Shown: one piece after another, positions 47,224 through 50,028 of the stretch | Position numbering within the stretch: position 1 is the stretch's first letter | Layout: every line of letters begins with the position of its first letter | From: Pseudomonadota bacterium | GTDB lineage: Bacteria > Desulfobacterota > Binatia > UBA9968 | DNA length: 64,000 bases | Reading direction: 5' to 3' | Assembly (NCBI GenBank): GCA_021324155.1 | Contig: JAJPJQ010000036.1 | Location: 62,001-126,000 of the forward strand | Program-made: the position numbers and the translations under genes | Notes under the pieces: model-generated | The model's input: only the letters and a program-made list of their open reading frames with translations | What the model was told of the DNA's origin: nothing | Database searches by the model: none

Positions 47224-47252
47224 TTGACTTTCCCTTAAATGGTTGCCATAGT
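47224..47252 (+). promoter_or_regulatory. Predicted promoter of the di-iron oxygenase operon
   Basis: -35 TTGACT (47224-47229), 17-bp spacer, -10 CATAGT (47247-47252). It starts 6 bp after the ptsP stop; the palindromic operator lies immediately downstream. Confidence 0.65.
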
Positions 47253-47259
47253 TAATTAA

Positions 47260-47273
47260 CGAACGCTCGTTCG
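47260..47273. promoter_or_regulatory. TetR-type palindromic operator
   Basis: CGAACG-CT-CGTTCG: six-base arms with a two-base centre, beginning 8 bp after the -10 and covering the expected transcription start, a position fitting repression. It fits the pattern C-N-AACG-NN-CGTT-N-G that I recall for the TetR-family repressor PaaR of Thermus, which senses phenylacetyl-CoA. No TetR gene is in the window, so the regulator must be elsewhere. Confidence 0.65.
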
Positions 47274-47305
47274 AATAATTGTGGCGAAGAGAAAGGGAGA
47301 CCGGC

Positions 47306-48406
47306 ATGGCGAAAATATCGACTTTTGACGACTGGGTTGATTATTTCAGACAATGGCAGAAAGACATCGGGTACGACCCGTCGCTTTTGGGCGACTATAA
47401 ATTCGAGACCAAGCTCGCCGACATCCACAGCCCGGAGATCGAGTTCGGCGACTTCAGAGGCCAGCGCAAGTGGGAGCGGCCCGAGCAGGCGCCGAATCAG
47501 TCGATTCGCGACGCCCTGCTGAACCTGATCGTCTATCAGGGCGATACCGAGTTCGCCTCGGTCGAGCAGCAGAAAAATCTGCTCGACAACGCCCCGACGG
47601 ACTACGATCGCCAATCCTTGATCCGCGTCAACAGCGAGGAGATGCGCCACGGCTGGCAAATGTGCTATCTCTTGGTAAAATATTTCGGCGACTCGGGGAA
47701 GCTCGAGGCGCAGAAAATGCTGGAGCGGCGCGCGTTCGAGGGCGACCGCCTGTTGGGCTCGTTCAACGCGCCGGTCAACAACTGGCTCGACTTTTTTACC
47801 TACACCCAGTTCGTCGACCGCGACGGCAAGTTTCAGCTTACGATGTTGAGCCATTCCGCTTTCGCGCCGCTCGCGCAAAGCGTGACGGCGATGCTGAAGG
47901 AAGAATTCTTCCATATGTTCACGGGCAATACCGGCCTCACGCGCATCGTGCGCGCGAACAAGATACCGATTCCGATCATCCAGAAATATTTCAACAAGTG
48001 GCTCTCGACCGCCTACGACCTCTTCGGCACCGACAATTCCTCATCGGCGCAGTGGGCGTATGTCTGGGGCTTGAAGGGCCGTTACGACGAGCACGAAGCC
48101 GCCGGCCCCGCCGACAAGGAGAAGCTCAACCAGGAATCGCGCGATCACTACATGGCCGAAAGCCGCAGCCTGATCGACGCGCTGAACCGGTTTGTTCCCG
48201 AGGGGGAGCCGAAGATCTACGCGCCGGATCTCAAGTTCAACCGCTCGATCGGCGATTTCGCCGGCAAGCCCTACAGCATCACCGGCGAGCTGCTCTCCGA
48301 AGAGGCGTACCGCAAGCACATCGCAGAGACGCTGCCGGGCGCGGCGGACGAGGCGAAGCTGAACGATATCTTCAAGGAGAAGGACTGGGTGCTGCAGATG
48401 AATTAG
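47306..48406 (+). CDS. PaaA/BoxB-like di-iron protein, putative acyl-CoA oxygenase
   Basis: 366-residue ferritin-like protein of the phenylacetic-acid-catabolism family, relatives of PaaA (phenylacetyl-CoA epoxidase) and BoxB (benzoyl-CoA epoxidase). Candidate iron ligands: E82, E112-x2-H115 (SEEMRHGWQ), D171 and E200-x2-H203 (KEEFFHMF). As I recall, BoxB uses the same order, with similar spacings. It is shorter than BoxB (about 470) and longer than most PaaA (about 310-330). I chose the ATG at 47306 (GGGAG nine bases upstream); an in-frame TTG at 47279 would start inside the operator region. A [2Fe-2S] ferredoxin and NuoF-like flavoprotein follow at once, and no other Paa or Box gene. Substrate unknown; CoA-thioester oxygenation is inference. 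Confidence 0.82.
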   Translation: MAKISTFDDWVDYFRQWQKDIGYDPSLLGDYKFETKLADIHSPEIEFGDFRGQRKWERPEQAPNQSIRDALLNLIVYQGDTEFASVEQQKNLLDNAPTDYDRQSLIRVNSEEMRHGWQMCYLLVKYFGDSGKLEAQKMLERRAFEGDRLLGSFNAPVNNWLDFFTYTQFVDRDGKFQLTMLSHSAFAPLAQSVTAMLKEEFFHMFTGNTGLTRIVRANKIPIPIIQKYFNKWLSTAYDLFGTDNSSSAQWAYVWGLKGRYDEHEAAGPADKEKLNQESRDHYMAESRSLIDALNRFVPEGEPKIYAPDLKFNRSIGDFAGKPYSITGELLSEEAYRKHIAETLPGAADEAKLNDIFKEKDWVLQMN

Positions 48407-48435
48407 CCTCGCGCCCGGCGCAAAAGGAGACTTGA

Positions 48436-48762
48436 GTGAAGCGGATTTGTCTGGTTTGCCAAAACGTCGACTGCAAGAACCGCGGCTCCGAAGAGATCAT
48501 GAAGGAGCTGCAGCAGCGGGCGAGCGATAAAGGCCTCGACGCGGACTGGGAAGTGAAGCCCTACATGTGCTTCGGCGCCTGCCAGGAAGGGCCGAACGTC
48601 GTGCTTTACCCCGAGAAGACCTGGTACGCGGGTGTCAAGAAAGACGACGTCGGCGAAATCGCCGAGCACATGGCCGGCGGCCCGGACGTGAAGCGGCTCG
48701 ACACCATCGACGCTTCGCTGAAAGATCTCATCTACCAGCTGCTCGACACCGGAGTCTTCTAG
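48436..48762 (+). CDS. Thioredoxin-fold [2Fe-2S] ferredoxin (NuoE C-domain-like)
   Basis: 108-residue protein with the C8-x4-C13 and C45-x3-C49 pattern (LVCQNVDCKNRG, MCFGACQEGPN) of thioredoxin-like [2Fe-2S] proteins, the fold of the NuoE C-terminal half. It should carry one electron at a time. The GTG start has an AAAGGAG site about eight bases upstream. It sits 29 bp after the di-iron protein and 3 bp before a NuoF-like gene, so it is the natural link between them. Stand-alone ferredoxins of this type also serve hydrogenases and formate dehydrogenases. Confidence 0.87.
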   Translation: MKRICLVCQNVDCKNRGSEEIMKELQQRASDKGLDADWEVKPYMCFGACQEGPNVVLYPEKTWYAGVKKDDVGEIAEHMAGGPDVKRLDTIDASLKDLIYQLLDTGVF

Positions 48763-48765
48763 AAG

Positions 48766-50028
48766 ATGGAAGGTATTCTCTTTCCGCGCGGCGTCGTCGA
48801 CGGCAAAGAAACGCTCGACGCGTACCGCGCGCGCGGCGGCTATCAAGCGCTCGACAAAGCGCTCAAGCGGATGTCGCCGCGCGACGTCCTGCAGGAGATC
48901 GACGCCTCGGGCCTCCGCGGCCGCGGCGGCGCGGGCTTTCCCACCGGCAAGAAATGGACCTTCACGGCGGATACGCGCGAGACGCCGCGCTACGTTATCT
49001 TAAACGGCGGCGAGGACGAGCCCGGCAGCAAGAAAGACCGCTTGCTGATGGAGAACGTGCCGCATTTGATCCTCGAAGGCGTGATTCTCGCCGCCTACGC
49101 CGTCGGCGCATCCAAAGCCTATCTCTACATCAACGCGGACTATAAAGACGCGATCCGGGCGATGGAAGAAGCGGTCGCGGACGCGAAGAAATTGGGCTAT
49201 GTCGGCGAGCGCATCGGCGGCAAGGATTTCAGCCTCGAGATCGAATTCTTTCCCGCGCCGCACGATTACGTCGCGGGCGAAGACAGCGCGGTCATCGAAG
49301 TCATCGAGGGCAAAAGGCCCCTGCCGCGGCAGAAACCGCCGTTTCCGGCGACCGCCGGACTGAACGCAAAGCCGACCGCCGTCAACAACGTCGAGACGCT
49401 CGCGAACGTCGCGCCGATCATCCTGCGCGGCGCCGCATGGTACCGCGGCATCGGCACCGCCGAGAGCGCCGGCACGATGGTCTTTTCGCTGAACGACGAG
49501 GTGAAGCGGCCGGGCGTCTACGAGCTGCCGTTCGGCACGCCGCTGCGCCATTTGATCGAAAGCTGCGGCGGCGGCACGCGCGATGGAAAGAAGATCAAAG
49601 CGGTGCTGCCCGGCGGCCCGTCGTCGGCGTTTTTATCCGGCGACCAGCTCGACGTCGCGCTCGACCACAACTCGGTGCGCGCGGCCGGCTCGTCGATCGG
49701 CTGCGGCGTCATCGGCATCGTCACCGAGGATCAATGCATCGTCGAGGAGGCTTTGCGCATCGCGGAGTTTTTCGCCAAGGAATCGTGCGGCCAGTGCCCC
49801 GCCTGCCGCATGGAGACCAACACGCTCGCCATGCTACTGAGAAAAATTCAGCAGGGCCAGGGACAGGCGGCGATGCTGGAGCAGTTCGGCAAAGTGATCG
49901 CCTTCAACAAAGGCAAGGGGTTTTGCAGCTTGATCAATATGCCCGGCCCGCCGATCGAGAGCGCGGTCCGGCTATTCCGCGGGGATTTCGAGGCGCATCT
50001 GGCGGGAAAGTGTTCCAGCACTTCGTGA
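48766..50028 (+). CDS. NuoF-like NAD(P)H-binding flavoprotein
   Basis: 420-residue homologue of the 51-kDa complex I subunit. GLRGRGGAGFPTGKKW (50-64) and NGGEDEPGSKKDR are the FMN/NADH-binding motifs. The [4Fe-4S] site is CGQCPAC-R near residue 345 plus a cysteine about 40 residues later (GFCS). It would oxidise NADH or NADPH and pass electrons via FMN and the cluster. It follows the [2Fe-2S] ferredoxin by 3 bp and lacks the rest of complex I, so it is not a Nuo remnant. As the last gene of the di-iron operon it is best read as the dedicated reductase. A structured, repeat-bearing intergenic region follows. Confidence 0.88.
   Translation: MEGILFPRGVVDGKETLDAYRARGGYQALDKALKRMSPRDVLQEIDASGLRGRGGAGFPTGKKWTFTADTRETPRYVILNGGEDEPGSKKDRLLMENVPHLILEGVILAAYAVGASKAYLYINADYKDAIRAMEEAVADAKKLGYVGERIGGKDFSLEIEFFPAPHDYVAGEDSAVIEVIEGKRPLPRQKPPFPATAGLNAKPTAVNNVETLANVAPIILRGAAWYRGIGTAESAGTMVFSLNDEVKRPGVYELPFGTPLRHLIESCGGGTRDGKKIKAVLPGGPSSAFLSGDQLDVALDHNSVRAAGSSIGCGVIGIVTEDQCIVEEALRIAEFFAKESCGQCPACRMETNTLAMLLRKIQQGQGQAAMLEQFGKVIAFNKGKGFCSLINMPGPPIESAVRLFRGDFEAHLAGKCSSTS

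Follow-up and report, generated by a model that had tools for sequence, protein, structure and literature searches.

A three-gene operon in a Binatia genome probably encodes a variant aerobic benzoyl-coenzyme A (benzoyl-CoA) epoxidase whose electrons come from NAD(P)H by way of a NuoF-like flavoprotein and a ferredoxin, in place of BoxA. The operon lies in the window studied here, a 64,000-nucleotide stretch (G000:C27:62001-126000) of a 4.8 Mb draft genome in 53 contigs, where genes for a BoxB-like di-iron protein, the ferredoxin, and the flavoprotein follow one another head to tail on the plus strand (Table 1). An earlier note on this DNA had proposed that the three genes form one operon, and the gene calls bear this out, with intergenic gaps of 29 and 3 bases; the start that it gave, 47224, coincides with the beginning of a promoter-like site. 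The operon contains no electron-transfer gene besides those for the ferredoxin and the NuoF-like protein, and neither a hydrogenase nor a NuoG gene. In the related di-iron epoxidases PaaA and BoxB, electrons are delivered by flavoproteins whose folds are different (PaaE and BoxA). If our proposal is true, the module through which NADH enters complex I and hydrogenases has also been recruited for O2 activation. No NuoE/NuoF module feeding an oxygenase was found in the open-licence literature, a weak negative that covers titles and the starts of abstracts and leaves most subscription journals outside. As far as these searches show, this would be the first oxygenase proposed to be driven by a complex I-type module within that literature.

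Identity of the Di-iron Protein

By its sequence, the di-iron protein of the window is BoxB-like and lies outside the curated BoxB equivalog. It scores 43.2 bits against PF05138 (cut-off 28.5), 237.6 bits against the BoxB equivalog profile TIGR03225 (cut-off 499.1), and 41.8 bits against the PaaA profile TIGR02156 (cut-off 280). The earlier description as PaaA/BoxB-like holds as far as a di-iron oxygenase with intact ligands is concerned, while the two scores place the protein with BoxB specifically and not midway to PaaA. The ligand pattern given at that time, E82, E112xxH115, D171, E200xxH203, is correct; these six residues align with E120, E150, H153, D211, E240, and H243 of BoxB and are invariant in 82 of 82 proteins of the BoxB-like family alignment. 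The family set consists of the best 80 of 270 relatives from a pattern scan of a species-genome collection, together with the window protein and a paralogue from its own genome (L003). BoxB ligand numbering and the residues that orient or bind the benzoyl group are those of the crystallized enzyme as given in excerpts of PMC5489048. Five of the seven listed benzoyl-pocket residues are kept: Q116, T119, S123, and F193 of BoxB correspond to Q78, T81, S85, and F153 here, all invariant in the family, and F203 corresponds to F163, which is kept in at least 90% of the family. At the family positions Q78, T81, and S85, PaaA has H, S, and G in the alignment.

The fold agrees with the profiles. An AlphaFold 2 (AF2) model of the window oxygenase built from 52 sequences has a mean predicted local distance difference test (pLDDT) score of 94.6, and its best match in the PDB is BoxB. 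VIA-align superposes the model on BoxB with Z 44.2 and a root-mean-square deviation of 1.7 Å over 357 residues, versus Z of at most 22.3 for PaaA; identity to BoxB is ∼37-38%. Since profile, pocket, and fold all favor BoxB, a PaaA-like assignment was rejected. The benzoyl-CoA 2,3-epoxidase BoxB (Azoarcus evansii, PDB 3PM5 and 3Q1G) thus shares the model fold, the six ligands, and most of the benzoyl pocket with the window protein. It differs in its length, with 475 aa in Mycetohabitans BoxB versus 366 aa here, and in that the window protein stays under the BoxB profile cut-off in a genome without a BoxA or a full-length BoxC over cut-off. PaaA, which acts with PaaBCE as phenylacetyl-CoA epoxidase, shares superfamily and ligands and differs in its profile and pocket residues. 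PaaB, PaaC, and PaaE were not found among the three operon genes and the four flanking genes scanned, the scope within which PaaB and PaaE were sought, as neither was searched genome-wide. The earlier statement that no other Paa or Box gene is present stands for the operon and these four neighbors and fails for the genome as a whole, which holds three further PF05138 genes and likely partners.

In the family tree, from which three PaaC-type and two short own-genome PF05138 proteins were left out, the window protein falls in clade A (20 rows, support 100/99), made up of Binatia and Deltaproteobacteria records. Clade B (19 rows, 100/100) adjoins it, combines Acidobacteria with Binatia, and includes L003, a 63% paralogue of the window oxygenase; the remaining clades are mainly Acidobacterial. 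A tree with PaaA and BoxB, which the earlier note had suggested, resolves clades A and B but gives BoxB and PaaA no firm position: the BoxB branch (3.64) joins L066 as its sister within the family (97/86), possibly an effect of long-branch attraction. Record titles among the best 80 of 270 name Binatia, Deltaproteobacteria, Acidobacteria, Planctomycetota, Chloroflexi, Gemmatimonadaceae, and others. Within the window's order, a family member occurs in 32 of 35 genomes and in all 16 of high quality, and in a sample of the phylum 4 of 247 genomes match the BoxB-like query. The fourth of these (G155) carries classical boxB (65.7% to Mycetohabitans) and boxC (57.6%).

A Candidate Reductase Module

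The ferredoxin scores 34.0 bits against PF01257 (cut-off 24.8) and corresponds to the C-terminal part of NuoE as a stand-alone protein; its ligand cysteines C8, C13, C45, and C49 are kept in 27/27 aligned sequences. The NuoF-like protein passes the Pfam cut-offs for Complex1_51K (PF01512, 154 bits), NADH_4Fe-4S (PF10589, 66.6 bits), and SLBB (38.4 bits) and has the glycine-rich loop and four cysteines. Against the complex I NuoF profile TIGR01959 it reaches 442.1 bits, under the cut-off of 558.65. In a tree made with a quick method, the 21 linked NuoFs form one clade (Shimodaira-Hasegawa-like approximate likelihood ratio test, SH-aLRT, 100). It excludes the 14 NuoFs used for comparison, from complex I, formate dehydrogenase, and complexes of that sort, which were chosen by hand from search matches or fetched loci and include the same gene twice; two fragmentary NuoFs (L018, L023) were left out. 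The reading as a complex I fragment was rejected, since the genome has a complex I on contig C39 that includes a NuoE and a NuoF of its own.

Compared with HydB and NuoEF of NADH-dependent hydrogenases and complex I (7q4v, 7t2r, 2fug), the ferredoxin matches the N-terminal domain of HydB and the NuoF-like protein its middle. Unlike HydB, the window has two separate proteins with no C-terminal ferredoxin domain, and its NuoF belongs to a clade of its own. BoxA, the reductase of BoxB, has two [4Fe-4S] clusters and uses flavin adenine dinucleotide and NADPH, according to excerpts of PMC4498308. The likeness to that enzyme is confined to the proposed role, a flavin and an Fe-S carrier supplied from a pyridine nucleotide; the window instead has NuoF, with flavin mononucleotide (FMN) and [4Fe-4S] domains, and a [2Fe-2S] ferredoxin of another fold.

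In clade A, the module follows the oxygenase wherever the contig extends far enough. There, the ferredoxin gene comes next in 19/19 loci with any downstream sequence and NuoF lies downstream in 18/18 loci that reach far enough, the window being included in both counts and some loci being cut by a contig end. Elsewhere in the family, a ferredoxin scoring above 90 bits is present in 7 of 62 loci (L032, L038, L043, L045, L048, L055, and L077; a 60-bit match in L079 was not counted), and three of the seven (L032, L048, and L077) have NuoF too. These loci have different neighbors, with an opposite-strand placement in L032 and L038. The clade B genomes that contain L053 (G308) and L045 (G311) carry the NuoF orthologue on a different contig, and in G308 a ferredoxin gene adjoins it. 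Overall, 6/32 family genomes searched have a NuoF of at least 49% identity. Conserved co-occurrence, which the earlier note had named as a check, is found: the genes stay together across the window's clade, so the refuting condition set there, that the three would not be conserved together, does not hold. Its suggestion that a complex I-type module is the electron donor gains from this linkage and from the single separate NuoF clade, which together point to a probable dedicated reductase.

Metabolic Context

The remaining steps of a benzoyl-CoA pathway likely have their genes at other loci of the genome, judging from the predicted products. BoxA and BoxC were not found over cut-off in the genome (best 23.8 of 459.2 bits and 70.8 of 712.3 bits, respectively). 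The best match to the BoxC profile is ECH-0, a 263-aa crotonase on contig C18 followed by an aldehyde dehydrogenase; the next scores 47.1 bits. ECH-0 keeps the FSAGA(D/N)I.ML stretch; among curated families it resembles general enoyl-CoA hydratases most, likewise under cut-off. Where the BoxC profile has 548 positions and a cut-off of 712, ECH-0 has one crotonase domain and stays far below. Its homologues (at least 50% identity, linked as one group) occur in 29 of 82 BoxB-like loci, among them L077, where ECH-0 and two aldehyde dehydrogenases lie divergently beside the BoxB-like, ferredoxin, and NuoF genes. ECH-0 is present in 28/35 genomes of the order, and an aldehyde dehydrogenase adjoins it in 20 of 21 fetched loci, the last being cut by a contig end. 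In the phylum sample, where at most 10 crotonase candidates per genome were scored, ECH-0 occurs in 3/247 genomes, and these are the very ones that carry a BoxB-like gene of full length; two of the three are from one family, so they amount to about two independent cases. No ECH-0 match was found in G155, the genome with classical boxB and boxC.

A benzoate-CoA ligase on contig C2 (580 bits, cut-off 375) is preceded by a second aldehyde dehydrogenase. Neither this enzyme nor the one on C18 exceeds a curated cut-off among the 25 families compared for each, so a BoxD role for them rests on gene position. In many Acidobacterial loci, the family gene stands with TetR, crotonase, aldehyde dehydrogenase, and molybdenum hydroxylase genes. 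All seven full-length HcrA-like large subunits tested, from Acidobacteria, score 1001.7-1036.4, narrowly over the 4-hydroxybenzoyl-CoA reductase alpha cut-off of 994.55; of the partial HcrA copies in further loci, the test took in only a distant homologue in L023, which did not match under the stricter limit applied. Three loci, each of a different lineage, have NAD-type formate dehydrogenase genes next to a BoxB-like or ECH-0 gene, with scores against a cut-off of 666 of 886 in L041 (Planctomycetota, alpha subunit), 842 in G069 (L155), and 642 in G012 (L099), where the gene is split. Formate is a by-product of the BoxC step, as stated in excerpts of PMC4782131. An anaerobic pathway as the fate of the benzoyl-CoA was rejected because the ring hydrolase marker TIGR03200 (BamA) reaches at best 88.5 of 464.45 bits in a search that did not extend to benzoyl-CoA reductase itself.

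Because of the pocket and the 4-hydroxybenzoyl-CoA reductase, benzoate-CoA ligase, and formate dehydrogenase contexts, the acyl-CoA substrate first suggested is supported and may be narrowed to benzoyl-CoA or a close aryl-CoA. On balance we lean toward a separate and widespread benzoyl-CoA branch in Binatia, Acidobacteria, and relatives that are known chiefly through metagenomes. This branch would have its own BoxB-like epoxidase, a BoxC of half length, and an operator of TetR type; some of its members would also have a complex I-type NuoF/ferredoxin reductase. If so, these poorly known, mostly uncultured lineages would have a testable route for benzoate and 4-hydroxybenzoate. Annotation by the cut-offs of the BoxA, BoxB, and BoxC profiles misses these organisms.

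Upstream Sequences

A palindrome, AACGAACGCTCGTTCGAA, stands 31-48 bases before the start codon of the oxygenase gene, just after the promoter-like site. In the window alone it is not significant (1 match versus a mean of 6.1 in shuffles, allowing up to 1 mismatch). With at most one mismatch, the core GAACGNNCGTTC lies between −34 and −49 from the start codon in 19/19 sister loci, 11 of them exact, where the remaining upstream sequence is largely diverged except for the −35-like box. The palindrome also recurs in Acidobacterial operons. The clade B paralogue L003 has an exact site at about −47, and a third PF05138 gene of the genome, on C18 with etfBA, has one at −33 with one mismatch. Across 61 other loci (649,296 bases), we found 23 occurrences; 29 permuted palindromes occurred 1.07 times on average, and ten simulations gave 0-2. 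The site is present in 11/11 loci with the conserved TetR gene and in 19/29 ECH-0 loci; many operator-bearing loci are close relatives, and these counts are therefore not independent. The palindrome may match the Thermus PaaR site. For the promoter, a search of the region gave 5 sites versus a mean of 1.1 in shuffles, weak on its own, and most sister loci carry a TTGA(T/C) box ahead of the gene in roughly the corresponding position.

Table 1. Predicted features of the operon and its upstream region, in window coordinates
Feature	Position	Strand	Basis
Promoter-like site, TTGACT, 17 nt, CATAGT	47224..47252	+	Consensus match
Palindromic operator-like site AACGAACGCTCGTTCGAA, core GAACGNNCGTTC	47258..47275		Conserved in sister loci
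BoxB-like di-iron oxygenase, 366 aa, probable benzoyl-CoA (aryl-CoA) epoxidase	47306..48406	+	Profiles, ligands, model
Thioredoxin-fold [2Fe-2S] ferredoxin, 108 aa, GTG start, NuoE C-terminal domain type	48436..48762	+	PF01257
NuoF-like flavoprotein, 420 aa, FMN and [4Fe-4S] domains, probable reductase	48766..50028	+	Domains, NuoF tree

Proposed Mechanism and Alternatives

In the scheme that we infer, NADH (or NADPH) would reduce the FMN of the NuoF-like protein, and the [4Fe-4S] cluster of that protein would hand the electrons on to the [2Fe-2S] ferredoxin, a separate protein of thioredoxin fold. The ferredoxin would in turn reduce the di-iron site of the BoxB-like protein; the NuoF/ferredoxin module would thus replace BoxA. 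The di-iron site would then activate O2 and epoxidize the ring of benzoyl-CoA, supplied by the benzoate-CoA ligase on C2, or of a close aryl-CoA. The half-length BoxC-like crotonase on C18 may open the epoxide to give formate and a semialdehyde, which one or two aldehyde dehydrogenases (C18, C2) could oxidize. A putative TetR-type repressor acting at the upstream palindrome probably controls the operon.

Several observations weigh against this scheme, among them the shortfall from the BoxB profile cut-off and two pocket changes. F206 of BoxB is Y166 here, and the T210 position holds V in 47, I in 34, and Q in 1 of the family proteins, so the substrate may differ from benzoyl-CoA. That the same enzyme and reductase act on another acyl-CoA (a substituted or heteroaromatic benzoyl-CoA, or an alicyclic one) is a tentative alternative, unlikely on the whole but the strongest of those we considered; it would also fit the low identity to BoxB, the varying gene sets around relatives, and the presence of two paralogues in one genome, which could mean two substrates. 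The main pocket residues are kept, however, and the ligase, HcrA-like, and formate dehydrogenase contexts point to benzoyl-CoA chemistry. Di-iron ferritin-like proteins often remove O2 or peroxide, and an NADH-type module is attached to this one, which would suit an NADH oxidase or peroxidase. The invariant BoxB pocket residues and the pathway context in relatives make such a role, without oxygenase activity, the least probable of the explanations weighed here.

Other adverse points concern the reductase. Among the family genomes searched, 26/32 have no NuoF above 47% identity (24 of the mainly Acidobacterial other clades, at loci between L024 and L082, plus L067 of clade B and L071), so this type of oxygenase does not always need the module. 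Six genomes of the order keep an intact ferredoxin and NuoF without an intact adjacent BoxB-like gene. A short 3′-end remnant of the oxygenase stands just before the ferredoxin gene in G002, G003, G005, and G007, which indicates that the oxygenase gene was lost there and the module stayed; no remnant was found in G006 and G001 at E 1e-3. Five of the six have a second BoxB-like copy elsewhere, ∼62% identical, and in G001 (81% complete) no family member was found. We read the module in the genomes that lost the oxygenase as serving the second copy, although the pattern also allows another acceptor. The ferredoxin and NuoF might indeed serve one generally, with the oxygenase reduced by, say, a GlpC-like Fe-S protein or a general ferredoxin: other clades do without this NuoF, and a GlpC-like gene lies within 6 kb in 15/19 clade B loci. 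We regard this as unlikely, somewhat more so than a different acyl-CoA, given that the linkage is repeated in separate lineages and in differing orientation, that the NuoF clade is a dedicated one, and that the operon has no further electron-transfer gene. Adjacency within clade A is weak evidence by itself, because other flanking genes recur in that clade as well: ptsP before the trio and, at several loci, aat after it. A lineage-specific synteny with no functional link is nevertheless very improbable, as in Acidobacteria and in G069 all or some of the three genes are found again beside different neighbors.

Two further points tell against details of the proposed epoxidase system. At window positions 48991-49317 (NuoF residues 76-92 and 168-184, which we take to lie near the nucleotide site), NuoFs of the clade (n = 7 aligned) read N(G/A)GEDEPGS and GED, versus NADESEPGT and GEE in the genome's own complex I NuoF. 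These differences leave the pyridine nucleotide unsure and suggest a possible change of donor specificity. A search that allowed up to two mismatches did not find the operator in the 200 bases ahead of ECH-0 in 16 genomes, and in the window's genome it found none before the second aldehyde dehydrogenase or the ligase, so the operator does not tie the dispersed parts into one regulon.

Neighboring Genes and Related Loci

Gene neighbors were called with a simple caller of our own, by which some genes were missed or misframed. The four flanking genes scanned, for a radical SAM protein and a ptsP-like product upstream and for leucyl/phenylalanyl-tRNA transferase and a glyoxalase downstream, give no metabolic clue. 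The module-only loci L092, L093, L095, and L096 (G002, G005, G007, and G003) and L094 (G006) are from one genus, and a TctC-like gene divergently adjoins in L094 and others. Beside the clade B paralogue L003 on contig C1 (L103 12799-13923) lies a convergent gene for a GlpC-like Fe-S/CCG protein. Contig C18 (L154 6862-9653, minus strand) encodes another PF05138 di-iron protein of 254 aa, followed by etfB and etfA, possibly a relative that is fed by electron transfer flavoprotein. In L047 (5998-7898), the BoxB-like gene is followed by one for a shorter PaaA/PaaC-like protein that resembles the ones encoded in the window's genome on C18 and C47.

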